Virus record (IMG/VR): IMGVR_UViG_3300042434_000316
Location: 1 to 28,039 of that record
From: a virus
DNA: 28,039 nt
Direction: 5' to 3' (one strand)
The notes beneath the pieces were generated by a model, which was given only the letters and a program-made list of their open reading frames with translations, ran no database searches and was not told the DNA's origin. Made by a program: the position numbers and the translations under genes. Below are positions 915 to 15,054 of this stretch, piece by piece; the stretch's first letter is position 1; every line of letters begins with the position of its first letter.

Positions 915-3272
915 TCAGTCTTCGTTGACAACCTCACCGGAGAACCCGGTGGAGGTCTTGGTGATCTGGATCTTCTTGCCGCCGCCGCCCGTAGACACGA
1001 TGATCGGCTGCTGCGGCCTCATGTCCGCGACCTGCCTGGCCAACGATTCAACCATGGACTTCAGTTCGTCCAGGGTTTCGCTGACTTTATCATCGGACTC
1101 ATCGGCGCTTGATTCTTCTTCGCTGCCGGATTCTTCCTCGGCCTGCTGCTGCTTGAGCGCCTTGGCCAGGGCAGCAAACTTCGCGGCGTTGTCCATCCGC
1201 ATGTTTTCAAGCTCCAGCTCGCGCTTGGCCGCCTCGAACGGATCCATCTGCGGCGCTGCGGGCTCGGGCGCGGGCGCCGGCTGCGGCTGCATCATCGCAC
1301 CCCCACCCTCGCCGCCGACCTTGGCCAGCGTCTCCATGGTCTTGGCCTGGGTCAGCTCGGCATCGGCCACGGTCGCCACCACATCGGCGCGAGCCTTCGC
1401 GGCCTTGGCCTGGGCCTCCTCTGCTGCAGCCTGCAGGAATATGGCATTCGGGTCAGGATTCGCGCCAGCCTGCGCCATCTGCGCGGCCTCCTCATCGGTC
1501 GGCTTGATCACGCCCATCTGCACCAACTGCCTGCGGAAGTGATCGCTGATCTCGGTCAGGCCCTCGCCTTCCATGTTCATCAGCGCGGCAGCCTGGAGCA
1601 CGCGCAGGGCGTCCGGGTCTTGCGTGACAGCCATCATCGCCGTGAGCGAGCGCACCGTCGCGGCACGCTTGCTGCTGCTGCTCGGGCCGACCTCAACAGC
1701 CAGGTCGAACTCGGCTTCGCTCAGGTCGTTTTCGTGCTCGACCTCGCCGTCCTCGCTCATGACCGGACGCATGAGTTCAATGGTGCTCATCTGGCCCTGC
1801 GAGCCGATGCCCTTCATCTTGCGGCCTGGCTCAACGTAGATTTCGCGGGCCATGCTGAGCCAAATCTCGCCGCCTCGGCGCACGCCCACAGCGTGATTGC
1901 TCATGTAAATGAACGTCTGCATGTCCAGGCGCTGCTGCACCATCTCCACGGCCTTGCCGCTGACGTTGGCGACGATCTTGTCGCCCTGCTCCTGGTTGCC
2001 CAGAACGTCGCGGATGTCCTGCTCGCTGATCTGCAGCAGTGCGGCCATGGCCGGGGGAATCTGCGGGCTCTTGGTGTAGCCCACCGGGCCTGCGGCCTGC
2101 TGGCTCCCGTCTGCGCCCGTGATCGGGTTCAGCAGCAGGTACGGGTAGTCCTTCAGATTGTCCTCGGACCACATGACCTGATGGCCGGCGACCTGCTCGG
2201 GCACCAGGATCGGCTTCTCGACGCTGGACAGCGCGGCAATCTCGGCCAGCTTGCTGCGCTGCATGTTCGCCAGGCGCTGCGCATCTTTCGCCAGCCTGAC
2301 ATGGCCGGCGCACCGCTCGATGTTGTCGATGAACCAGCGGCGGCCGTAGGTCGGAACGATAGGGATGTGCTTGCCGGCGATGTACCCGGCGTCTTCCAGC
2401 ACCTTCGCGCCGCTCAGGATGTACTTGCGCACCCGCTGGCGCTTGATGCGCTTCTGGCGCACCTCGACGCTGCCGATGGCCTCAAGCTGGGCCAGCATCT
2501 CGTCGTCCAGTTCGCTGTCGCGGTAACGCTCCTCCTCGCCATCCAGGCTCTGGAAGATGCGAACCGTCTCCGACACCATCTCGACCCGGTAATACTCGGC
2601 CACATAAATGACGTCAGGCGTAGACCAATCGAACTCATACTGGTGGATTTCCTTTGGCCAGGACGCCGGGTCGTCGTTGTACGCCTCGCGGTACGAGTCA
2701 GGCGTCATGCTGGTCAGCACGAAGCACCGCTTGGCATCGGCCTTGTCCTGGCGCTTGGCCTGCAGGTCAAAGAACACCGAGGAGTCGGCGTCGAAGATCG
2801 GCTCGATCTTGATGCGCTGGCGCTCGTCCTCGTCGTCTTCCTCGTTCTCGTAGACCGTGCGCAGGCGGTAGGCGCCGAAGCCGCCGCCCACGGCCTCCTG
2901 GAATGCGTTGTCATACGCCTCATCGGCGCCGCTGTCCTGCTCGTCTGCGCGGTACAGGTCGTCGCAGGTTTCGGCCAGCGGGTCGTATTCCTTGCCCTCT
3001 TTTGACACGAAGTCCACCGTCACGCGGTTGGCGCGGTACTCGGAGAAGATCCGCTGCACCGCAAGGGCGATCTTGTTGACCTCCATCTTCGGCTTGTTCT
3101 CGAACTGCGCACCCAGCGGGCCTTCCCACTGCGCCCCGGCGATGGAGTAGAACCGCCGATCCTGCAAGCACTGCAAGCGCTCATCGCGCAGCGCGCCCTG
3201 GATGTTGTCGAACTCGCGCATGGCCTCAGCGTGAACGCGCACCAGCCGCTGTTCGGTTGATTCTCTGGCCAT
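915..3272 (-). CDS. Portal protein, P22-like
   Basis: A 785-residue protein of the P22-type portal family (P22 portal is about 725 aa). Portals form the dodecameric ring at the head vertex through which TerL pumps DNA and to which the tail attaches. The N-terminal third includes NKIALAVQRIFSEYRANR (about residues 66-83), typical of this family near the start of the core. The last about 180 residues are predicted helical and charged (repeated A/E/K/Q blocks near 605-640), resembling the long helical barrel of P22-type portals. An unusual acidic serine-rich run (EEESGSEEESSADESDD, about 709-727) follows. GGAG stands 6 bases before ATG 3272. It lies directly downstream of terL, as in P22-like head modules. 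Confidence 0.93.
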   Translation of the reverse strand: MARESTEQRLVRVHAEAMREFDNIQGALRDERLQCLQDRRFYSIAGAQWEGPLGAQFENKPKMEVNKIALAVQRIFSEYRANRVTVDFVSKEGKEYDPLAETCDDLYRADEQDSGADEAYDNAFQEAVGGGFGAYRLRTVYENEEDDEDERQRIKIEPIFDADSSVFFDLQAKRQDKADAKRCFVLTSMTPDSYREAYNDDPASWPKEIHQYEFDWSTPDVIYVAEYYRVEMVSETVRIFQSLDGEEERYRDSELDDEMLAQLEAIGSVEVRQKRIKRQRVRKYILSGAKVLEDAGYIAGKHIPIVPTYGRRWFIDNIERCAGHVRLAKDAQRLANMQRSKLAEIAALSSVEKPILVPEQVAGHQVMWSEDNLKDYPYLLLNPITGADGSQQAAGPVGYTKSPQIPPAMAALLQISEQDIRDVLGNQEQGDKIVANVSGKAVEMVQQRLDMQTFIYMSNHAVGVRRGGEIWLSMAREIYVEPGRKMKGIGSQGQMSTIELMRPVMSEDGEVEHENDLSEAEFDLAVEVGPSSSSKRAATVRSLTAMMAVTQDPDALRVLQAAALMNMEGEGLTEISDHFRRQLVQMGVIKPTDEEAAQMAQAGANPDPNAIFLQAAAEEAQAKAAKARADVVATVADAELTQAKTMETLAKVGGEGGGAMMQPQPAPAPEPAAPQMDPFEAAKRELELENMRMDNAAKFAALAKALKQQQAEEESGSEEESSADESDDKVSETLDELKSMVESLARQVADMRPQQPIIVSTGGGGKKIQITKTSTGFSGEVVNED

Positions 3273-3303: not shown

Positions 3304-3332
3304 ATTATGCTACGCGAGCGGGTGAAAGTCTA
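3304..3332 (-). promoter_or_regulatory. Possible sigma70-type promoter before portal
   Basis: On the minus strand TAGACT (3332-3327) and CATAAT (3309-3304) are separated by exactly 17 bases, a fair match to the -35/-10 consensus. The -35 box overlaps the terL stop codon, and transcription would begin about 25 bases upstream of the portal start. The terL-portal gap (57 bases) is longer than most gaps in this operon. The call rests only on consensus matching. Confidence 0.3.
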
Positions 3333-4670
3333 TCGCCATCGGTGCGCGGTCGGAACTACCAGGCCGGCGATGTCCGGTTTCTTCGCCGTCGCTCCCGTGA
3401 TTGCGGGGAACAACGCGGCCAGACCCCAGATCAGCGCATCGGCGCGGTTCGGGCTGCGACTGCCGGTGTAGCCGGTGGTGGAGAACCCGCTGAGTTCGTC
3501 CTCCAGCTCGGGGAACATGCCCACATGCCGGACCTTGCCCTGCTCATACAGCGACGAGAACGGCTCGGCTCGCACCACCTTGCCCCGGCTGGCCGTCACC
3601 GGGCGGAACGGCGTGCGCGGGCGCGCTGTCTCGATCACCTGGCGCACCATCGCGCCGCCGTAATTCACCTCAGCCACCACGCAGTCGGCGCTGTGCCGGT
3701 CGAATGCCTCTGCGGCCACGCGGCCCCAGGTTGCAGGGCCGGCTTTCACGGTCAGGTCCTCGAGCAGGTAGCACGCGCCATCCGTGGCCAGGCCGACCAC
3801 GACGATGCCGATGGCGTCATTGTCCGCGCTGGCTTCGTCGTCCGCGCCGCTCGGGTCCACTGCGACCACCACGCGCACCAGTTGCGGCACGGCGCCGTCC
3901 AGCACGCGCCATCGGTCGATATGCTCCTCTGGGAACAGGGCGTTCGGGTTCGCGTCTGCGAATCGGCCCTCAAGGAATCGCGCCCGCATCCTGGCCGGCA
4001 GTGACTCCAGCATCCGCAGGTATTCCGGGCTCAGGTTCGCGGCATTGTCGGTCGGGTTGATGCTGAAAGCCGCGTAGTCCTCGGGCCGCGGCAGGCCCAG
4101 CCGGGTGTCGGGGTCGCGCTTCTCTACGAATCGGCGGTACGTCCAGTGCGTCTTGCTGGGCGGGTTGCAGTCGTAGTAGGCCCGCAGGCGCAACGGGACA
4201 GGCGATCTACCTTCGATCTGCTGCTCGGCCTTCTGCGCTAGGCGGGTCAGCGCGGTGTCGATGCTCGAAAGCGGGATCTGGCTGCACTCGTTGAAGTACA
4301 GCGTGGCGAACTCCTGGCCCAGGATCTTCTCGGTCCTGTCCTTGTCATCCAGGCCAGCAAACCAGATTTGCGAGCCACCGGGGAAGCTGACGTAACCGTC
4401 CTGCTGGTGCATTTCCCAGGACACGCCGGGATACGCGGCCCGCATGACCTTGGGGAACGTGTCCAGCACGACGGACGCCTTCAGGTGGTTGTACCTGAAC
4501 CGGAAGATCGCATGCCGGCTGTTCGGCGCCTTCAGCGCCCGAAAGACCACGTTGCGCGTGAGCAGGAACGTCTTTCCGCTGCGCGAGCCACCGAACAGCA
4601 TCAGGTGCGTGGCGTCACCGCTCAGGACTTGCTGAGCGGACTTCTGGCGGTCGGTTAGCTGGAATGCCAT
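3330..4670 (-). CDS. terL: Terminase large subunit (packaging ATPase/nuclease)
   Basis: This 446-residue protein is the DNA-packaging motor. The ATPase domain shows Walker A GGSRSGKT (27-34) and Walker B LYFNE (124-128) with the catalytic Glu. The RNase H-like nuclease domain shows VDPSG (Asp272), AEVNYG (Glu334) and NRADAL (Asp411), the expected acidic metal ligands in order. Length is normal for the family. It follows the small terminase subunit and the 71-aa gene and precedes portal, the standard packaging order. ATG 4670 lacks a strong ribosome binding site (only AAGG some way upstream). A short overlapping frame (4655-4783) ends just inside it and could couple translation. Confidence 0.95.
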   Translation of the reverse strand: MAFQLTDRQKSAQQVLSGDATHLMLFGGSRSGKTFLLTRNVVFRALKAPNSRHAIFRFRYNHLKASVVLDTFPKVMRAAYPGVSWEMHQQDGYVSFPGGSQIWFAGLDDKDRTEKILGQEFATLYFNECSQIPLSSIDTALTRLAQKAEQQIEGRSPVPLRLRAYYDCNPPSKTHWTYRRFVEKRDPDTRLGLPRPEDYAAFSINPTDNAANLSPEYLRMLESLPARMRARFLEGRFADANPNALFPEEHIDRWRVLDGAVPQLVRVVVAVDPSGADDEASADNDAIGIVVVGLATDGACYLLEDLTVKAGPATWGRVAAEAFDRHSADCVVAEVNYGGAMVRQVIETARPRTPFRPVTASRGKVVRAEPFSSLYEQGKVRHVGMFPELEDELSGFSTTGYTGSRSPNRADALIWGLAALFPAITGATAKKPDIAGLVVPTAHRWR

Positions 4671-4783
4671 CGTGTGTTATGCGCCTTGCGCGCTATCGAA
4701 AGCAACAGGTCGCGGAATGGTTCAGGCGTGGCGTTGCGGATCAGGTTAACCGGCGCGTTGGGTCGAGTTGCCCAGCGCCTCAA
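4655..4783 (-). CDS. Candidate small basic ORF between the 71-aa gene and terL
   Basis: A frame in +1 relation to the upstream 71-aa gene runs through the 75-base gap before terL and stops at TAA 4655-4657, inside terL. From TTG 4783 it gives 42 residues, including APVNLIRNATPEPFRDLL and SIARKAHNTRW, with ordinary amino-acid composition and mostly G/C third positions. Three further in-frame TTG codons lie in the hexamer repeat upstream. There is no ATG and no clear ribosome binding site. It could be a short real gene, the remnant of one, a leader that couples terL, or chance. Confidence 0.3.
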   Translation of the reverse strand: MRRWATRPNAPVNLIRNATPEPFRDLLLSIARKAHNTRWHSS

Positions 4784-4961
4784 TGTCAATGTCAATGTCA
4801 AGGTTCGGGTGGACTTCAAACGCTTTGTCGCGCCAAGCCCGCAATTCGCGCAGTTCGTCTAATGCAATCCATGCTTGCATGATGTCTGCGCCGTCGTACT
4901 CTCCGGTCTTTAGCTTTGTGCGCAAAAAGGCCAGTCCGTTGTCGTCAAGTGCAATAGGCAT
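4746..4961 (-). CDS. Small protein between terS and terL (71 aa)
   Basis: The protein begins MPIALDDNGLAFLRTKLKTGEYDGADIMQAW and ends in an acidic Asp-Ile repeat (DIDIDIEALG) encoded by a hexanucleotide repeat. GGAGAG stands 5 bases before ATG 4961, so this start is preferred over ATG 4994, which would overlap terS by 14 bases and has no such site. It lies between the two terminase genes. I do not recognise a family; it is mostly helical by composition, and function is unknown. Confidence 0.75.
   Translation of the reverse strand: MPIALDDNGLAFLRTKLKTGEYDGADIMQAWIALDELRELRAWRDKAFEVHPNLDIDIDIEALGNSTQRAG
4781..4801. repeat. Tandem hexanucleotide repeat, 3.5 copies
   Basis: CAATGT is repeated three and a half times on the plus strand (TTGACA units on the minus strand), within the 71-aa gene where it encodes alternating Asp and Ile. 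Copy-number change would lengthen or shorten the DIDI tract without shifting frame. In the alternative frame each unit supplies a TTG codon. Confidence 0.9.
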
Positions 4962-4980
4962 TTGCTCTCTCCATCCACGC

Positions 4981-5403
4981 TCAGAGTTTCTCATCGTCAG
5001 ACTGCGCGACGAGTTTCACCGCGCCGCCGTCGTGGCCGGCCAGCTTGATCATGTCGCCGTATTTTTTCGGGGCGAGTTTCGATAACAGCCACTTGCGAGT
5101 ATCTACCTGCAGTTTGTGTTTCTGGATCGCGGCCCAATCCTTTTTGCCATCGACAGTTTCAGGGTCTTGGTCGGATATATCCATTAATTCACTGGCGACT
5201 TTCTCGATGAAGTCTTCCCGCGCCTGCGCGTACCGGTCAGCAAGCGCAGCATCCTGACTCACCCAGAGCATGAACGTGCTGTGAGGAACCTTGGCCTTCT
5301 CGCAAGCCTTCCAGCATGTGAGCCCTGAATTCATGTGCGCCAGCACCGAATCCTCCATCTTCGCCCGCTCAGGGCTTCCGGATTTGGTCGGTTTGTTTGC
5401 CAT
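4981..5403 (-). CDS. terS: Terminase small subunit (DNA recognition)
   Basis: A 140-residue protein starting MANKPTKSGSPERAK. An N-terminal helix-turn-helix region (about residues 25-62, including GLTCWKACEKAKVPHSTFMLWV and DRYAQARED) is followed by a helical middle (HKLQVDTRKWLLSKLAPKKYGD) and an acidic tail. WLxxKLxPKKYGD is characteristic of one family of small terminase subunits. These proteins recognise the packaging site and stimulate TerL. AGGAG lies 6 bases before ATG 5403; the in-frame ATG at 5407-5409 touches AGGAG and is less likely. It is the first gene after the spacer with the inverted repeat, so a packaging site could lie there or within the gene. Confidence 0.9.
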   Translation of the reverse strand: MANKPTKSGSPERAKMEDSVLAHMNSGLTCWKACEKAKVPHSTFMLWVSQDAALADRYAQAREDFIEKVASELMDISDQDPETVDGKKDWAAIQKHKLQVDTRKWLLSKLAPKKYGDMIKLAGHDGGAVKLVAQSDDEKL

Positions 5404-5432
5404 CTTCATCTCCTAAAAGTTAGTGACCACTC

Positions 5433-5528
5433 AGGGGAGACTAGGGGAGGGTCATCCTGTTTATCGGGTATCGCGTGCGTGTGCGCGCGTGACGTATCAA
5501 ACAGGATAAGTATCCCCTACCCTCCCCT
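5433..5528. repeat. Long imperfect inverted repeat in the primase-terS spacer
   Basis: Two 30-base arms (5433-5462 and 5499-5528) match at 24 of 30 positions with identical internal spacing: AGGGGAG, 2 bases, TAGGGGA, 5 bases, ATCCTGTTT. The 36-base centre is rich in alternating CG/TG. Each arm therefore holds two AGGGGA-type direct repeats, four in all. The region between 5404 and 5540 has no gene. It could be a replication origin bound by the primase-helicase, a packaging (cos/pac) site next to terS, a regulator-binding site, or a large transcript hairpin. The repeat itself is directly seen; its role is not. Confidence 0.85.
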
Positions 5529-5533
5529 AAACC

Positions 5534-5554
5534 AAAAAACCTAGGGTAAACCCT
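5534..5554 (-). terminator. Weak terminator-like hairpin at the end of the primase gene
   Basis: On the minus strand AGGG-TTTA-CCCT forms a 4-bp stem spanning the last codons and stop region of the primase-helicase gene, followed within three bases by six T residues. The stem is short for an intrinsic terminator. It is placed where early leftward transcription could end before the late genes. Confidence 0.3.
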
Positions 5555-7865
5555 GATTCCGCGCCTTCTCCGTTGCATTCAAGTCGATGCCCTTCAGCGT
5601 CATGATCCCGGCCATCTTGACCTTGCGCAGCCCCGGAACAAGGGTCATCTTCTCACCCCATACGGTCTGCGAAGGCTCATGCTCGCCCCTGGATTGCTTC
5701 CAGCGCCTGAACGATGCGTACAGGTCCGACGATCTGGCGTGTGTGCCTGCGTCCGTTTTGCAGCACTCCTCGATCCACATGGCGATGTCGTCATGCTCGG
5801 CCATGTAGTCGCGGCTGGCGTCCTCAACGCTGCCAGGGATGGCTAGGCCGTCAGCGTACCATTTGCGAGCGCCCTCAATGGTCCAGGCCATGATGCCGGG
5901 GGCTTCGGCCTTCAGCTTCTCGGGTAGCTTGGCATCCTTGGCAGCACCCTCAAACTTCTGCAGGAACGGCACCAACACCATGCGGCGGGCCATTGCAGGG
6001 TCGCCACCCTTCAGCCGGGGCTTGTGGTTGCCTGCAATGAGGTGCTTGTGGCTCATGGTGAACGTGAAGTTGTCCTGCCGCATGAAGCGCGCCGTCAGGG
6101 TTTCGTCGCCGGTCAGTTCCTTGATGCGCGCCTCAGCCCAGAAGCTGCCCTCCTCGAGCTCGTTGCTGACGGCCAGACGCTTGCCGTGAAGCTGGGCCAG
6201 CTCGGTCGGATGGCGCTCGTTTCGGCTTGCCATCAGCGCCGTCGTGGGCAGCTTCAGCGCATAGGTGCCCATGATCCACATCAGGATGTCCAGCAGCGTA
6301 GATTTTCCGTTGCTGCCCTGCCCGTGCGCGAAAAACAGCTTCTGCTCGCGCCTGTCGCCTGAAAGGCAATACCCGCACATGCGCTGCACAAACTCGATTG
6401 TGTCGGCGTCATCCACAAACACTTGAGAAACGAACCGCAGCCAATGCTCGGTTTTCTGCCCAGCGTCTGGCGATACTCTGCAAAGCTGCGTCAGATACTG
6501 CTGGCGGTTTCGCTGGTGCGTTTTGCCGGTGCGCAGATCAACCAGCCCGTCAGGCGTGTTGAGCATCAGCGGGTCGTTGTCCCACTGTGCCGCCGGCACC
6601 ACGATGTCCGGGTCAGACTGCGCCAGAAACAGCAGGGCGTTGACGGTCTTCGCGCTGGTGATCGGCTTGCGGATCTTGGCGTCTGCCAGCATGGCCACAG
6701 TGCGCGCCGTCTTGCGGGCCAAGTCGAACCGTATCAGGTGGTCGTCGCGTTTCCAGTGCGTGCCTTCGTCGTGCATCCAGCCGAGTCCCGGGGACCACCG
6801 AAGACCAGCCCCGAACTGCGCCACGAACTCCAGCGCCAGCGAGTCGTCGGAGAACTCTGGCGGTATCGGCTCGATCTCCCCGGTGTCGGCGTCAATGACC
6901 TCTGCCGCCCGCTGAACCACCGGAACCGATGCGCTAGGCGCCCTCACCGACACACGGGAAGTCATCCAGGCCTTGCAGTCAGCCCAGCCGGTGAACTCCG
7001 CGTCTGCCGCGTCCCACCCGTCAGGCTGGTCTGCAACGTCGAGCACCTTAACCTCGGACGCCCGCTCATGGATGATCTGCGCCACACGCTGCATAGCCTT
7101 TTTGCCAGGCTCATCTGCGTCTGGCCACAGCAGCACCTTGCGGCCCGTCAGCGGCGTCCAATCGGCCTTGTCCGTTGCCATGGCGCCGGCAGGCCAAGTG
7201 ATGACCACGTAGGGAGCGGCAAACCGTCGCGCAGCGTCTGCGGCCTTCTCGCCCTCCACCACCAACACGGCGGATTCTGGCCGCGCCTCAAGCTCCTGCA
7301 GGCCGTACAGCGGCCTTGGAGATGGCCACTGGCCCATTCCCCAGCGCTCTCCGTCCCATGTCCACGGGACAATCTGCTTGCGCTCGCCTGCGGGTTCGTA
7401 TCGGGCCACATAGCCCAGCACTTCGCCGTTGCCATCGAAGTAAGTCCACCGCGCGGCCGGCGGGCCGTAGCGCGGGTGCGTGCAGGGGCAGTCGGCGCAG
7501 GCTTCAGGCACTGGCGTCACCACGCGGCGCGTAGGTTCTTGCTGCGCCTGGGGCTTCGCGTGGTGCCCGTTCATGCGCGTAGCCGGCTTGGTTTCGCCCC
7601 CGAGTTCTCGGTAGGCTTCGCCCATCGGAAGGCTGTAGATGGCCGCGTAGAGGCTCACAAGGTCGCTCCCGTGGTCGCCGGTTGCAAAGTCAGCCCATGC
7701 GCCCGTGGTGATGTTGACCTTGAGCGATTGCCCTGCGGCGCCACTCAGATCGCCCGCCACCCAGGAATTGCCGCGCTTGCGGCCGGCTGGCAGCCAGGAT
7801 GAAAGGTGAGTTTCAGCCGATGCGAGAAGCTGACGGGCCAGGCCGTCGAAGTCGAGGCCGGCCAT
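5541..7865 (-). CDS. Primase-helicase (TOPRIM + SF3/D5-type helicase)
   Basis: A 774-residue replication protein. The N-terminal half has a primase-type region with CADCPCTHPRYG (123-134, possible metal site) and a TOPRIM-like core: VVEGEKAAD (202-210) and LLWPDADEPGKK (245-256). The C-terminal half is a D5/P4-type superfamily 3 helicase with Walker A GQGSNGKST (515-523) and SNELEEG (567-573). Phage P4 alpha protein is the classical example of joined primase and helicase activities. ATG 7865 lies two bases after the TGA of the upstream gene (coupling); the longer frame beginning near 7931 would overlap that gene. It is last in the early leftward operon, next to a repeat-rich spacer that could be its origin. 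Confidence 0.92.
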   Translation of the reverse strand: MAGLDFDGLARQLLASAETHLSSWLPAGRKRGNSWVAGDLSGAAGQSLKVNITTGAWADFATGDHGSDLVSLYAAIYSLPMGEAYRELGGETKPATRMNGHHAKPQAQQEPTRRVVTPVPEACADCPCTHPRYGPPAARWTYFDGNGEVLGYVARYEPAGERKQIVPWTWDGERWGMGQWPSPRPLYGLQELEARPESAVLVVEGEKAADAARRFAAPYVVITWPAGAMATDKADWTPLTGRKVLLWPDADEPGKKAMQRVAQIIHERASEVKVLDVADQPDGWDAADAEFTGWADCKAWMTSRVSVRAPSASVPVVQRAAEVIDADTGEIEPIPPEFSDDSLALEFVAQFGAGLRWSPGLGWMHDEGTHWKRDDHLIRFDLARKTARTVAMLADAKIRKPITSAKTVNALLFLAQSDPDIVVPAAQWDNDPLMLNTPDGLVDLRTGKTHQRNRQQYLTQLCRVSPDAGQKTEHWLRFVSQVFVDDADTIEFVQRMCGYCLSGDRREQKLFFAHGQGSNGKSTLLDILMWIMGTYALKLPTTALMASRNERHPTELAQLHGKRLAVSNELEEGSFWAEARIKELTGDETLTARFMRQDNFTFTMSHKHLIAGNHKPRLKGGDPAMARRMVLVPFLQKFEGAAKDAKLPEKLKAEAPGIMAWTIEGARKWYADGLAIPGSVEDASRDYMAEHDDIAMWIEECCKTDAGTHARSSDLYASFRRWKQSRGEHEPSQTVWGEKMTLVPGLRKVKMAGIMTLKGIDLNATEKARNQGLP

Positions 7866-7867
7866 GG

Positions 7868-8140
7868 TCAAGCGTCCGCGTAGGGTTGTTCGCTCAGGTT
7901 CGTGGAATGATGAACTACATATTCGCAGCACTCATTCCACGCATCGACGAAGGCCAGCTTCTGCCTCTCTGTTGGATCATCGTTCCAGAGAACATGAAGG
8001 GCGCCCTTGTGGTCGTGCAGTGAGAAGATAAGTCGGTCTGCTTGCTCACGGGTGACGCCCATGATCGTCATCCAGATTCGCAGGCACTTCTCCAGCCGCT
8101 TGTTACGGAAAGCGGCATCCTCGTAGTTCGATATCAGCAT
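7868..8140 (-). CDS. Unknown small protein (90 aa) before primase
   Basis: The protein starts MLISNYEDAAFRNKRLEKCLRIW and is mostly helical, with mixed charge and a double Cys (ECCEYVVHH) near the C-terminus. GGGGGAATC stands before ATG 8140. Its stop is two bases before the primase-helicase start, so the two are probably co-translated. A candidate promoter lies in the 88-base gap upstream. No family is recognised; a role with the primase is only suggested by position. Confidence 0.75.
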   Translation of the reverse strand: MLISNYEDAAFRNKRLEKCLRIWMTIMGVTREQADRLIFSLHDHKGALHVLWNDDPTERQKLAFVDAWNECCEYVVHHSTNLSEQPYADA

Positions 8141-8228: not shown

Positions 8229-8612
8229 TCAGAACGGGATGTCGTCATCCATGTCATCAAAGCTCGTCGGCGCCCGAGGCGCAGGCGCAGGGGCCTGACG
8301 CGCCCGCTGTTCCCTGTCACGGATGGCCATAGCATCGCGCTGGTCCTGGTTCATGCGGGCCGGTGCCGGCGCGGCAGCCGGTGCCGGGGCCGGTGCAGGC
8401 GCAGGCGTGCCCCAATCGTCCTTCGGTTGCACCGACAGGCTCATGTACTTCTGCCCCGCCAGCTTGGTGCCGTCGCGCCCGGTCTTGATCCAGGCGCTGA
8501 GCCAGTATTCCGTGCCGTCGACGTTAATCGAGCCCCGATAGTCCGGCCTGGAATCGTTGCCCTGCTTGTCGTTCTTGGCCAGGAGTCCGCTGTTCGTGTT
8601 GTCGTAGCTCAT
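8229..8612 (-). CDS. SSB-tailed replication protein (127 aa)
   Basis: The protein has three parts: a compact N-terminal domain (1-65; MSYDNTNSGLLAKND, PDYRGSINVDGTEYWLSAWIK, KYMSLSVQPKD), a Pro-Ala linker (about 69-86), and a C-terminal tail ending DDMDDDIPF. That ending matches the acidic tip by which bacterial SSB recruits replication and repair proteins. The N-terminal domain is a type common in phages and plasmids but is not an obvious OB fold. GAGG precedes ATG 8612; a longer frame upstream overlaps the next gene and is rejected. The ATG overlaps the preceding stop. Single-strand DNA binding or replication-hub binding is inferred from the tail and the operon. Confidence 0.85.
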   Translation of the reverse strand: MSYDNTNSGLLAKNDKQGNDSRPDYRGSINVDGTEYWLSAWIKTGRDGTKLAGQKYMSLSVQPKDDWGTPAPAPAPAPAAAPAPARMNQDQRDAMAIRDREQRARQAPAPAPRAPTSFDDMDDDIPF

Positions 8613-8815
8613 GTGTCCTCTATGGTGATGCGGTTGCGCCGCTTGGTGATGGGCCTGCGGCCCAGGTGAAACTGGTGGCAGAACGGGCAGTGGTAAATCT
8701 GCCGGCTGCGGCCACGGCGCGAGGCGCGTTCGCCTACGCGCTGGGCCTGAAGAAACGACGCGAACGCGATTTTTCCAGTGCAAGCGCTGGCGCGGTAGTC
8801 GTCATCGACGGTCAT
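8609..8815 (-). CDS. Small zinc-ribbon-like phage protein (68 aa)
   Basis: A basic protein with the core YHCPFCHQFHLGRRPITKRR (about residues 41-60). The C-P-x-C-x-x-x-H arrangement resembles half of a zinc ribbon and is typical of short phage proteins of unknown role. The upstream part (DDDYRASACTGKIAFASFLQAQ) has an additional Cys. Start ATG 8815 overlaps the VRR-NUC stop (8812-8814), and its own stop overlaps the start of the SSB-tailed gene, so it is locked in this operon. Nucleic-acid binding is plausible but not shown. Confidence 0.8.
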   Translation of the reverse strand: MTVDDDYRASACTGKIAFASFLQAQRVGERASRRGRSRQIYHCPFCHQFHLGRRPITKRRNRITIEDT

Positions 8816-9285
8816 GCCAGCAACGCCTGCGCATCCTCAACAGACCGGCAAACCCCGGCCACGCCGCCCGCCTGGCGGATCGTGGCGAGGAACTCCTCCT
8901 GGCCTGGACGCATGCGACCGGTGGCGGACTTGACCTCAATAGCCAGCGTGCGCCCGTCTTTCAGCACGCCCATGATGTCGCTCATGCCATTGGCCGTGTT
9001 CGCCCGGATGTACCGCACCGATCCGTCGCGGTTGCGCTCCTGAAACGTGCCTGAATTGACGCGCCAGCAACTGGCCACCCTCGGATGGCGCTTCAGCAGC
9101 GCCATGATGGCCTTGAGAATCTGCGCCTCAGTGGGCTGGCCTGACGTTTTGCGCGGCTCGCGCTTGGCCGGCTCAGGCGGTATATCCAGCAGCACGCGAG
9201 GCTTGCCGCTGATGGCGGAGTAGCGATCCATCGCGGCTTGGTTGCGAAGCATGACTTCGCGCAGGGTTTCGCGGCCTCGGGTCAT
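8812..9285 (-). CDS. VRR-NUC domain nuclease (157 aa)
   Basis: A PD-(D/E)XK nuclease of the VRR-NUC type. The pattern is seen as E53 in TEAQILKAIM, then GMSDIMGV (Asp103), AIEVKS (Glu117, Lys119) and GQEEFL (Gln129), matching the order of the family's active site. In the middle, CWRVNSGTF is also typical. Stand-alone VRR-NUC proteins are found in phages and cut branched or structured DNA in the characterised members. ATG 9285 is chosen since it overlaps the helicase-methyltransferase stop as ATGA; upstream residues overlap that gene. Resolution of replication or recombination intermediates is the likely role. Confidence 0.9.
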   Translation of the reverse strand: MTRGRETLREVMLRNQAAMDRYSAISGKPRVLLDIPPEPAKREPRKTSGQPTEAQILKAIMALLKRHPRVASCWRVNSGTFQERNRDGSVRYIRANTANGMSDIMGVLKDGRTLAIEVKSATGRMRPGQEEFLATIRQAGGVAGVCRSVEDAQALLA

Positions 9286-11483
9286 GCTGCGAATAGCCCG
9301 CGCTGCTCGCGTGTGGCGTCCATGATGTTCTCGACGGCCAACTCCCAATACTGCGGCTTCAGTTCAGTGCCGACGAATCTACGGCCCATCTTCACTGCGC
9401 AGTAGCCCTCAGAGCCAATGCCAGTGAACGGGCTGAAGATCAAGTCTCCGCGATTCGTCCACAGATGGATGCACCGCTCAATGACGTCCAGTTGCAGCGG
9501 GCACATATGCTTTTCGTCGTTCTCGTCGCGGGCTGGCAGCTTGTTCAGCGTGCGGCCCTGGTCGATGTCGCTCCAGATCGGGCTGGCGTACTTCTGCCAC
9601 ATCATGACAGGCAGATCATCGCCATGCGTTACACGCGGCTCGGCGTCTCCAGGCTTGCGCATCGTCACCACGTAGTCAGGCAGGCCCATGCGCGACATGC
9701 TGGCATTTTCGCGGATGGTCTTGTGCAGCAGGCCCAGCGCCTTGGTGCGCTGCATGGCCACTACGGGGTCTTTCCAGATGCACACCTCTGAATGGTAGAT
9801 GAAGCCGGCATCCTGAAATGCGCGGATCAGGTCGCCCCGAAAATCACGCAGGCCGATGAACCCTTGCCGCATCTTGGTGGTCGGCAGGTTCATGCAGTGG
9901 AAGCTGACATTGCGCCCAGGCTTGATGATGCGGAACAACTCGCCGATCAGATAGCGAAGCTGGGCCACGAACTCCGCATCGTCGCGGCAGTTGCCCATGT
10001 CGTGGTCGCTGTTTGAGTAGACGAACAGATCAGCGAACGGGGGCGAGAACACCGAGTAATCGATGCTGTTGTCTGCCATGCGCCGAGTCCACTTCACGCA
10101 GTCACCCAGATGCACGGTAAACCCGTCGCCTTCGTGAGTGTCCTCGCGGTATTCGTCCACGATGTTTTGCTGCCCAGACAGCTCATGGTTCATGATGTCT
10201 TTCATGTGCTCGATCATGTTCGCGCTCATTTCGTGGTGCTGCTCTTCCTTGCGCTTGAGGTTCAGCAGAATCTGGCCTTCGTTCTCGGCAGTGAACAGAT
10301 GCACCTGCACGCTGCGCTTCTGGCCAAACCGATGGCATCGGCGCACGGCTTGGTAGAACTTCTCGAACGAGTCATCCAGCCCGACGAACGCCATGCGTGC
10401 GCAGTGTTGCCAGTTCATGCCGAAGCCGCAAATCTTCGGCTTGCTGATGAGCACGCGCAGAGTGCCACGGCTGAAGGCCATCATCTGCTCGGCCTTGTAT
10501 TCGGCACTGTCTGACCCTTGCACGTTGATGCTGCCAGGAATCAGGCTCTGCAGCAGCTCGGCCTCGTCGTTCAAATGGCACCAGATCAGCCACGGCTCAG
10601 ACGATTCCGAATTGACCACATCGGCCAGCGCCCGGCACCGCTGCTCAATGCTGCCGCGCTGCGCTTGACGGCGCTCTGTCAGGGTCTGCGCAGGCCGGCT
10701 GAATAGGTCGTTGCCCAGCGGGTCTGTCTCGACCACATGCTCGAGGTATTGCGGGGCAGGAAGCACGTAGCGCGAACCGTCGAACCCGAGATCCGAAGGG
10801 TTGCGCAGCACCACGGCCCATGTGCCCATCCATTCCCAGAACTTCGAGGCACCCCATCCCTTCAGGCGCCATGTGCCGGTGTCTCCGGTGTCGTTGACGA
10901 AGTATGTGGCCAGCATCTCGGTGCGCGTCATCACGCCGAGGAATTCGCACTGGTTGCCCAACTCCTCGAAGTCGTTAGGGCTCGGAGTTGCCGTGCAGCT
11001 CAGGCGGTACGGGACGCCCTGCGCAGACTCAATGATGCGCGTGCGAGTCTTGCCATCGTGCGCCTTGAGAATGCTTGATTCGTCCAGCACAAGCCCGTGC
11101 AAGCCGCCGAAGTCGATGGCATCCATGCGCTCGTAGTTCGTGATCCAGACGCCAGGCGCATCAGGTGAGCCACCGTGAGGAACCCGCCGCACCGTGATGC
11201 CGAACGTAGAGCCCTGCTCGATGGTCTGCTCTGACACGGCCAGCGGCGCCAGGATCAGCACCGCGCCATTCGTGTGCGATGCCACCTCGTCAGCCCATGA
11301 CAGTTGCATCAGGGTCTTGCCCAGCCCCGTATCCGCAAAGATCGCCGCCCGCCCACGCCTGACGGCCCACGAAACGATGGCGTGCTGAAAGTCGAACAGA
11401 TGCGGGTTCAGTTCTCCCGGCTGGTGGCCAGTGCCCACCTCGGCGCGGCGCTTGCCGGCCACGAAGTCCTCGTAGTTTTGCAC
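9282..11483 (-). CDS. SNF2-type helicase fused to DNA methyltransferase (733 aa)
   Basis: One chain joins two enzymes. Residues 30-430 form an SF2/SNF2-like helicase: Walker A DTGLGKT (51-57), DExx-box LDES (133-136), motif III CTATP (163-167), and the C-terminal lobe with GFGMNWQHC (353-361) and QAVRRCHRFGQ (378-388). Residues 450-733 form an amino-methyltransferase: catalytic SPPF (480-483) precedes the SAM-binding FSPFTGIGS (683-691), the beta-class order used by N4-cytosine and some N6-adenine enzymes. GTG 11483 is preferred: AAAGGAG lies 6-7 bases upstream; GTG 11507 is in a hairpin loop and has no site. It likely modifies phage DNA or remodels replication forks. No endonuclease domain is seen in this chain, but a nuclease gene follows by overlap. 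Confidence 0.9.
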   Translation of the reverse strand: MQNYEDFVAGKRRAEVGTGHQPGELNPHLFDFQHAIVSWAVRRGRAAIFADTGLGKTLMQLSWADEVASHTNGAVLILAPLAVSEQTIEQGSTFGITVRRVPHGGSPDAPGVWITNYERMDAIDFGGLHGLVLDESSILKAHDGKTRTRIIESAQGVPYRLSCTATPSPNDFEELGNQCEFLGVMTRTEMLATYFVNDTGDTGTWRLKGWGASKFWEWMGTWAVVLRNPSDLGFDGSRYVLPAPQYLEHVVETDPLGNDLFSRPAQTLTERRQAQRGSIEQRCRALADVVNSESSEPWLIWCHLNDEAELLQSLIPGSINVQGSDSAEYKAEQMMAFSRGTLRVLISKPKICGFGMNWQHCARMAFVGLDDSFEKFYQAVRRCHRFGQKRSVQVHLFTAENEGQILLNLKRKEEQHHEMSANMIEHMKDIMNHELSGQQNIVDEYREDTHEGDGFTVHLGDCVKWTRRMADNSIDYSVFSPPFADLFVYSNSDHDMGNCRDDAEFVAQLRYLIGELFRIIKPGRNVSFHCMNLPTTKMRQGFIGLRDFRGDLIRAFQDAGFIYHSEVCIWKDPVVAMQRTKALGLLHKTIRENASMSRMGLPDYVVTMRKPGDAEPRVTHGDDLPVMMWQKYASPIWSDIDQGRTLNKLPARDENDEKHMCPLQLDVIERCIHLWTNRGDLIFSPFTGIGSEGYCAVKMGRRFVGTELKPQYWELAVENIMDATREQRGLFAA

Positions 11484-11498
11484 TCTCTCTCCTTTCGT

Positions 11499-11513
11499 TG
11501 CGGCCACGCCGCA
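11499..11513 (-). promoter_or_regulatory. Stem-loop just upstream of the helicase-methyltransferase RBS
   Basis: TGCGGC and GCCGCA (6-bp perfect stem, 3-base loop) lie in the 54-base gap before the helicase-methyltransferase, a few bases ahead of AAAGGAG. On the minus strand the T-run lies before, not after the stem, so it is not an intrinsic terminator. The loop is GTG, in frame with the gene. A role in translation or mRNA stability is possible but only inferred. Confidence 0.4.
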
Positions 11514-13292: not shown

Positions 13293-13633
13293 GCGCGAAG
13301 CACACACCGGGGCCGTGGCGCCTCACGTTAGAGCCCACCGGGTTGCCAGGCGTCAACGTGTGTTTCTGCATTGACACAGACTATGCCATCAACATCGCAG
13401 GAGGCCAGAGCCAAGAGCACCTGGGAGGCGCCAGCGGCGCAATTTTTGAGGAGGAATGCCGCGCCAACGCCCGCCTGATCGCGGCGGCGCCGGAACTGCT
13501 GGAGGCGTTGAAGGCCATGCTTTCGCACACGGCAGAATTGGACCCGATGCAGGGCTATCGGCCCGAAGAAGACTTTATCGCCGTGAAACAAGCCAGCGCC
13601 GCCATCGCAAAAGCCACCGGAGAACCCGCATGA
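13289..13633 (+). CDS. HTPGPW-type phage protein (114 aa)
   Basis: The start MSAKHTPGPWRL and the C-terminal NARLIAAAPELLEALKAM are the two landmarks of a very common uncharacterised phage family, in which a beta-rich N-terminus is followed by an Ala-rich helix. A GGAGG-containing stretch precedes the ATG, which overlaps the preceding stop. Its own TGA overlaps the exonuclease ATG as ATGA. Role is unknown although members are often found with phage recombination genes. Confidence 0.85.
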   Translation: MSAKHTPGPWRLTLEPTGLPGVNVCFCIDTDYAINIAGGQSQEHLGGASGAIFEEECRANARLIAAAPELLEALKAMLSHTAELDPMQGYRPEEDFIAVKQASAAIAKATGEPA

Positions 13634-14310
13634 CCACCCTAACCGACACCCAGCGCACCGACGAATGGCACGCTGCCCGCGCCGGCAAGGTCACTGCCAG
13701 CCGCTTCAAGGACGTCCTGGCCCGCAACAAACCCACCGCCGCGCAGGCCAAGGCCGGCGAGCTTGGCAACCCGAGCGCCGAGCGCACGCGCTACCTCTGG
13801 CAGATCGTGACCGAGCGCCTGACGGGCCAGCCCGTGCAGATGCCCGACGCCGCACCGCTGCGCTGGGGCCGCGAGAACGAAGACGCCGCCCGCGTGGCGT
13901 ACCAGTTCACCACCTCGGCCAGGATCACCGAGACGGGCTTCGTGGCGCACCCGAAGCTGCCCATCGGCGCGAGCCCTGACGGCCTGGTGACGGACGAGAC
14001 GGACCCGGATGGCGCGTTCGGCCTGATTGAGATCAAGTGCCCGTGGAGTTCTCAAGTCCACCTCGAAACGTGGCTGAACGGCATGCCCGAGGATCACCAG
14101 GCGCAGATTCAAGGCCAGATGTGGCTGACGGGCCGCGAGTGGTGCGATTTCGTGTCGTTCGACCCGCGCATGCCCGCCGACCTGCAGCTCTACGTTGAGC
14201 GAGTCAAGGGTAACCCCGAGTTCCAGGCGCGCCTGGAGCGCGAGATCATCGGATTCAGCGCAGAGGCAGACGAGATCGTGGCCAAGCTGCGCGCCAAGGT
14301 GTCCTTCTAA
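13630..14310 (+). CDS. YqaJ-type viral recombinase (lambda-exonuclease family)
   Basis: A 226-residue PD-(D/E)XK exonuclease of the YqaJ/lambda Exo type. Key residues visible are SPDGL (Asp117), LIEIKCPW (Glu134, Lys136) and QIQGQMWLTGREWCDF (Gln161 region), in the order expected. The start TDEWHAARAGKVTASRF (about 10-26) with R-x-G-x-x-T-A-S is also characteristic. Such enzymes digest one strand of linear double-stranded DNA to leave a 3' single strand for the partner annealing protein, here the next gene. ATG 13630 overlaps the preceding stop; upstream residues belong to the preceding gene's DNA and are rejected. Confidence 0.93.
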   Translation: MTTLTDTQRTDEWHAARAGKVTASRFKDVLARNKPTAAQAKAGELGNPSAERTRYLWQIVTERLTGQPVQMPDAAPLRWGRENEDAARVAYQFTTSARITETGFVAHPKLPIGASPDGLVTDETDPDGAFGLIEIKCPWSSQVHLETWLNGMPEDHQAQIQGQMWLTGREWCDFVSFDPRMPADLQLYVERVKGNPEFQARLEREIIGFSAEADEIVAKLRAKVSF

Positions 14311-14334
14311 CCACAGTAATCACAGGAGTTCTGC

Positions 14335-15054
14335 ATGACAACTGCACTCGTTCCCGTCGATCAAGTCGAGCGCATGGCCGTGGCCGTCGCCAAGTCTGGC
14401 CTATTCGGCACCAAAACGGCTGACCAGGCTTTGGCCCTGATGCTCATCGCGCAGGCTGAAGGTCTGCACCCGGCCATCGCAGCTCGTGACTACCATGTCA
14501 TCAACGGCAGGCCCACGCTCAAGGCCGACGCCATGCTGGCCCGCTTCCATTCGGCAGGCGGCAGCGTGCGCTGGGGCGAATACACCGACCGGCGCGTGGT
14601 TGGCACGTTCAGCCACCCGCAAGGCGGCAGCGTGGAGGTCGAATGGACGCTGGACATGGCCACGGCTGCCGGCCTGACCAAGAACCCGACATGGAAGTCC
14701 TACCCGCGCCAGATGCTCCGCGCCCGCTGCATTTCGGAAGGCATCCGCACAGTGTTTCCAGGCGTGGTGGTCGGCACCTACACGCCCGAGGAGGCCGAAG
14801 ACATGGGCTCCGCGTCGCCCGCGCCGGCACGCGACATGGGGCCGGTGGTCGAGGTCGCAGACTTCGGCAGCATCATGCGCCAGATCGACGCCGCGCAGAC
14901 CATTGACGCGCTGAACGATCTGCGGCCCGCAATCCGCACGCTGGACCGTGACGCCCGCACCGAGGCCATGGACGCGGCCCAGGTTCGTGCCGGTCAGATC
15001 CGCGCAGCGCAGGCGCCTGTTGATACGCTGGAGGCCGCAGATGAGCCAATCTGA
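14335..15054 (+). CDS. RecT/Bet-like single-strand annealing protein
   Basis: A 239-residue protein resembling phage recombinases often labelled RecT-like. Landmarks are MLIAQAEGLHPAIAARDYHVINGRPTLKADAMLARF (about 36-71), FSHPQGGSVEVEW (92-104) and YPRQMLRARCISEGIRTVFPGVVVGTYTPEE (123-152). AGGAG lies 6 bases before ATG 14335. It directly follows the YqaJ exonuclease, giving the usual exonuclease-plus-annealing pair that recombines phage DNA or builds concatemers. The C-terminal 80 residues are Ala/Asp/Arg-rich and less conserved, possibly an SSB-interacting tail. Confidence 0.85.
   Translation: MTTALVPVDQVERMAVAVAKSGLFGTKTADQALALMLIAQAEGLHPAIAARDYHVINGRPTLKADAMLARFHSAGGSVRWGEYTDRRVVGTFSHPQGGSVEVEWTLDMATAAGLTKNPTWKSYPRQMLRARCISEGIRTVFPGVVVGTYTPEEAEDMGSASPAPARDMGPVVEVADFGSIMRQIDAAQTIDALNDLRPAIRTLDRDARTEAMDAAQVRAGQIRAAQAPVDTLEAADEPI

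Follow-up and report, generated by a model that had tools for sequence, protein, structure and literature searches.

Positions 5433 to 5528 of the window (the whole stretch analysed, i.e. a 28,039-base virus record, possibly a fragment) very probably constitute the replication origin of a phage, in the form of an iteron array that would be recognised by the adjoining primase-helicase, as in systems of the P4/PICI type. At the level of sequence, the comparison of related loci demonstrates how the words in this region are arranged and that they are conserved and inherited jointly with the helicase/C-terminal half of the primase-helicase. The preliminary description had already proposed protein-binding words here, with an origin read by the primase-helicase as one of its main readings, and this is strongly supported by the comparison, in that the word follows the helicase half.

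Structure and conservation of the repeat

The two arms of the inverted repeat (5433-5462 and 5499-5528) are 30 nt each, are matched at 24 of 30 positions (80% complementary) and are separated by a spacer of 36 nt. The six mismatches lie in two patches, one of 2 bases (AC vs GG) and one of 5 bases (GGGTC vs TACTT, of which 4 are mismatched). Arm coordinates, number of matches, 36-base centre and both patches had been described before in the same way and were confirmed by recomputation. No other pair in the window reaches 23 of 30 matches with a spacer of at most 200 nt. When the whole window was shuffled 224 times with dinucleotides preserved, 24 of 30 was equalled once and never exceeded. Taken alone, the repeat has a window-wide significance of about 0.005; its conservation in relatives can be said to make it secure. 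It starts 12 nt past the end of the primase gene, and the same position 3' of the initiator gene is found in the relatives.

These relatives comprise 112 distinct loci, each including the stop codon of the initiator gene and DNA beyond it; the queries used to collect them were the primase, terS and the C-terminal halves of four further classes. Where a class is well sampled, tandem words of 9-10 bp form two opposed arrays within ~230 nt of the stop codon of the initiator gene, invariably next to its 3' end, as in PICI and SaPI origins. The words themselves are wholly different from class to class: TAGGGGAGGG in class A (to which the window belongs), TTCTACACGT in class B, AGGGACACTA in class C and TGGCACAGGA in class D, with class E being weak (four loci). 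Diverged relatives of class B carry yet other words (GTAACCTGT in L152, the GGTGAGGCA type in L153-L158), and L115 carries a drifted word that is missed by the class A test.

In the window each arm consists of two tandem 10-bp words, the two pairs being inverted relative to each other, which corresponds to the two iteron sets of PICI/SaPI origins; more copies are present in classes B-D. The primase-side arm contains TAGGGGAGGG (copy 1, 5520..5529, minus strand) and TAGGGGATAC (copy 2, 5510..5519, minus strand), and the terS-side arm contains TAGGGGAGGG (copy 3, 5442..5451, plus strand) and CAGGGGAGAC (copy 4, 5432..5441, plus strand). The first three are conserved in class A loci, while copy 4 reads TAGGGGAGGG-like in L011, L026 and L035, so that the word is restored there. 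The preliminary description had singled out words such as AGGGGAG and TAGGGGA as conserved. Conserved words do exist, but what is conserved as a unit is a 10-bp word of the TAGGGGAGGG type that is present twice in each arm, whereas the inner word ATCCTGTTT (5454..5462 on the plus strand, terS-side; 5499..5507 on the minus strand, primase-side) is kept only partly. The 10-bp words recur beside the primase gene in class A loci, as had been asked of relatives. An exact word scan of viral contigs gave 21 matches, 10 of which are primase loci carrying the repeat; the other 11 were set aside as unrelated and mate-less, being about the number expected by chance for a 16-base pattern in such a collection.

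The strand of the repeat folds far better than shuffles do, both in the window and in relatives (z about -3 to -6, as DNA), and it could therefore be asked whether what the initiator recognises is not the sequence of the words but a stem-loop extruded 3' of its own gene, as has been proposed for pRN1 and the Bordetella phage BIP-1. In pRN1 a 100-bp stem-loop is indeed required while its sequence is not conserved, and the origin lies, with inverted arms, 3' of a primase-helicase (orf904) with a C-terminal winged helix, much as it does here (PMC4234260). Here, however, word identity is conserved beyond pairing: within class A, L026 (inner words GTTCGGTTT vs GGAATAGGAT) and L027 (inner word degenerate in the right arm) have lost the inner pairing but retain the 10-bp words, which supports the earlier proposal of words rather than a simple hairpin. 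Besides, classes B and D have additional direct copies beyond the stem, the identity of the word is common to many unrelated phages of one class, and the corresponding region of a BPP-1-type phage is likewise made of tandem words. A purely structural origin is therefore unlikely. The window also differs from orf904 and BIP-1 in its primase, which is TOPRIM-like, with AEP in relatives such as L002.

In that BPP-1-type phage (L261, Bordetella phage vB_BbrP_003), a 48-nt inverted repeat of tandem TTTGCCTCG words is located at 3778-3881 between primase and terS, the order of genes being that of the window. Altogether, 20 records of named phages with related primases were read by eye, and arrays in inverted orientation could be made out on the 3' side of the gene in AcaML1, GMA4, Adonis, Syra333, Enkosi, Cheetobro, JNU_P9, a Listeria phage and the BPP-1-type phage, about half of the records being without a clear array; these are readings of sequence that carry no statistic, as the automatic word score fails to separate all of them from gene-internal windows. 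A blastn search of the 400-bp region against named phages gave zero matches, and a scan of genome contigs with the primase gave zero relatives.

The central tract

The 36-nt centre contains 23 G+C, and class A centres have 49-56% GC, i.e. the AT-rich centre of PICI/SaPI origins is not found here. Its place is taken by a 20-nt perfectly alternating purine/pyrimidine tract (5472..5491), CA-rich on the minus strand, which is the longest such tract in the window and whose position and polarity are conserved in classes A, B and D. Alternating tracts of at least 18 nt were counted in 9 of the 12 loci of class A, in 13 of the 19 of class B and in 48 of the 54 of class D, compared to 3% of random 250-nt windows from the same loci, and the CA-rich strand is the initiator-sense strand in all 70 of 70 tracts. 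The named phage AcaML1, with a helicase half that is 38% identical, has a 20-nt tract at the same place. The tract is absent from classes C and E and is thus not a universal part of these origins. Where present, it may have a role in strand opening, and it is proposed as the unwinding element.

What the words follow

Among the 39 loci that share the TerS of the window (at least 60% identity), word class equals helicase/C-terminal class in 38, with 23 as the best of 20,000 shuffles, and among the 21 loci with the N-terminal primase domain of the window the two agree in 19, with 13 as the best shuffle; since the loci are related by descent, these shuffle figures are not to be read as probabilities. 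The classes differ in helicase family as well, A and D having DUF5906 (A also D5_N), B and C a VapE-like helicase and E DUF3987. The presence of five classes on one backbone requires at least four exchanges.

Conversely, the words do not follow TerS. Loci whose TerS is 77-84% identical carry unrelated words, while the words of the window are kept in loci with a TerS of only 42-44% identity (L002, L003, L004, L005 and L019) and even of 24% identity (L026 and L028). This tells against the other main reading of the preliminary description, namely a packaging (pac/cos) site bound by TerS. The repeat does adjoin terS, and TerS and portal are of the headful type, but this reading is contradicted by loci with entirely different words at 83-84% TerS identity and by loci at 24-44% that retain the words of the window together with the helicase half, and in L011 and L035 the array stays by the primase with a gene between array and terS. 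As the words do not track TerS, a TerS-bound pac site is very unlikely, its probability being close to negligible, and terS (4981..5409, minus strand; an Sf6-like terminase small subunit) is regarded as a neighbour rather than as the reader.

A transcriptional element, i.e. an operator or terminator between replication and packaging genes, would fit the intergenic position between two modules, and iterons are able to double as operators. It is nevertheless quite improbable, as positions 4900-5800 are without an intrinsic terminator or sigma-70-like promoter and 4000-7000 without an Rfam match, a repressor site is not expected to change with the helicase half, and the array stays 3' of the initiator even where different genes follow.

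As for the part of the initiator that reads the words, L002 keeps those of the window despite an unrelated AEP Prim-Pol N-terminus. The N-terminal primase domain was rejected as the reader on the basis of this swap and of the 19 of 21 agreement with helicase class. The occurrence of the same words with different TerS and different primase types places the putative reader in the helicase/C-terminal half. Helicase and winged helix always change together in these loci, so the winged helix alone and the winged helix plus helicase are seen here as one joint unit.

The putative initiator

The proposed initiator is encoded at 5541..7931 (minus strand). Its N-terminal half is TOPRIM-like, with matches to DUF6371 (below cut-off) and to phage primase profiles, the latter reaching nearly to the C-terminus; the TOPRIM assignment is our own reading of the EGEKAAD and DAD motifs. 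It is followed by D5_N and then DUF5906 (SF3 helicase). In a sequence comparison with the PDB, a DNA primase of 797 residues (7OLA/7OM0), which we take to be a SaPI primase-helicase, ranks first.

The last 97 residues (5544..5834, minus strand) were modelled as a winged helix when folded alone (AF2, pLDDT 86); a model covering the C-terminal half (460 residues) was of low quality (pLDDT 35), and only its terminal domain looked usable. Its top structural matches are RFX domains (Z 9.4), followed by the P4 origin-binding domain 1KA8 (Z 8.0 over 81 residues, 3.2 A) and then by the C-terminal domain of viral PrimPol. By itself, a Z of about 8 could reflect merely a common arrangement, but the matching context adds weight, and the domain is the candidate reader of the iterons. 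Primase N-terminus, SF3 helicase (D5_N/DUF5906) and predicted C-terminal winged helix together give the architecture of P4 alpha, in which TOPRIM primase, SF3 helicase and winged helix are likewise part of one chain and iterons are the binding sites (here candidate sites). With regard to a second site like crr of P4, no further exact TAGGGGAGGG copy is present in the 28-kb record, which is possibly a fragment.

L002 and the window share the same helicase/C-terminal half, while the N-terminus is an AEP Prim-Pol in the former and a TOPRIM-like primase in the latter; the N-terminal half that the initiator has in the window is also missing from L003, L011, L035 and L037. Small ORFs just 3' of the iterons encode stand-alone relatives of the initiator winged helix in L011 (7099-7572, plus strand), L035 (7568-8041, plus strand) and L115 (2646-2885, plus strand), which in L011, and by alignment also in L035, is followed by a YozE_SAM_like domain. 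Such a protein could compete for the iterons as a regulator of copy number or expression.

Proposed mechanism and relation to known origins

In the mechanism that is proposed here, the C-terminal winged helix would bind the iterons, and the inverted arrays would serve to load a pair of SF3 helicase hexamers, head to head, onto the alternating purine/pyrimidine tract of the centre; this tract would then be opened. The N-terminal TOPRIM domain would lay primers, and extension of these by the host polymerase in both directions would result in bidirectional replication. GC skew within the window, which had been suggested as a check, shows no turn at 5480 and is not decisive either way.

In SaPI and SCCmec initiators, the C-terminal domain binds iterons directly 3' of the initiator's own gene (PMC7581432), and PICI origins consist of two iteron sets around an AT-rich centre, directly after the initiator helicase gene (PMC6092414). 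The window resembles this module (pri-rep-ori, with SaPI Rep and SCCmec Cch2) in having a helicase gene followed by two sets of short iterons around a centre. It differs in that it is part of a phage that encodes terminase and portal itself, in that an alternating CA/CG tract takes the place of the AT-rich centre, and in that helicase and iterons are swapped as a unit on one phage backbone. The type of centre and the exchange as a helicase-origin cassette, even between helicase families, set the window apart from the PICI origins described. In 2018 it was stated that the layout of PICI origins occurs in no other replicon (PMC6092414), a claim that the present data call into question.

More generally, helicase and origin may form one exchangeable cassette in tailed phages, in which D5-, VapE- or DUF3987-type halves, each with its own iterons, are placed on the same primase domain and structural backbone, and in which the D5 classes and one VapE class converged on a strand-polar CA/CG tract that replaces the AT-rich element, perhaps via a B-to-Z transition or as a flexible helicase entry. 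This generalisation is tentative, and somewhat doubtful in its full extent. Still, the data suggest an alternative to AT-rich DNA as an unwinding element, and the natural swaps tie specificity to the helicase/C-terminal half and set it apart from TerS and the primase domain. To our knowledge, the origins of most tailed phages are unmapped, and for phages encoding a primase-helicase of D5 or VapE type the data suggest a search rule, namely to look for inverted tandem words of 9-10 bp 3' of its gene.

Genomic context

The gene order on the minus strand is primase-helicase, repeat, terS, terL (3330-4670) and P22-like portal (915-3272). With its own TerS, TerL, P22-like portal and tail genes, the window does not represent a phage satellite of the PICI/SaPI type; the phage is P22/Sf6-like. 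A tRNA search found none in the window, so that a reading as a tRNA-linked att site is unsupported.

Ahead of the ribosome site of terS lies the element AGTGGTCACTAAC (5418-5431, minus strand), which is common to word classes A, B and C and therefore delimits the exchanged helicase-iteron cassette on the side of terS. Other genes of the window include one for a single-strand binding protein-like product (8229-8783, minus strand), an ORF in which a SNF2/helicase part is fused to an N6/N4 DNA methylase domain (9282-11507, minus strand) and, on the opposite strand, genes for a RecE-like exonuclease and a RecT-like annealing protein (13456-15054, plus strand).
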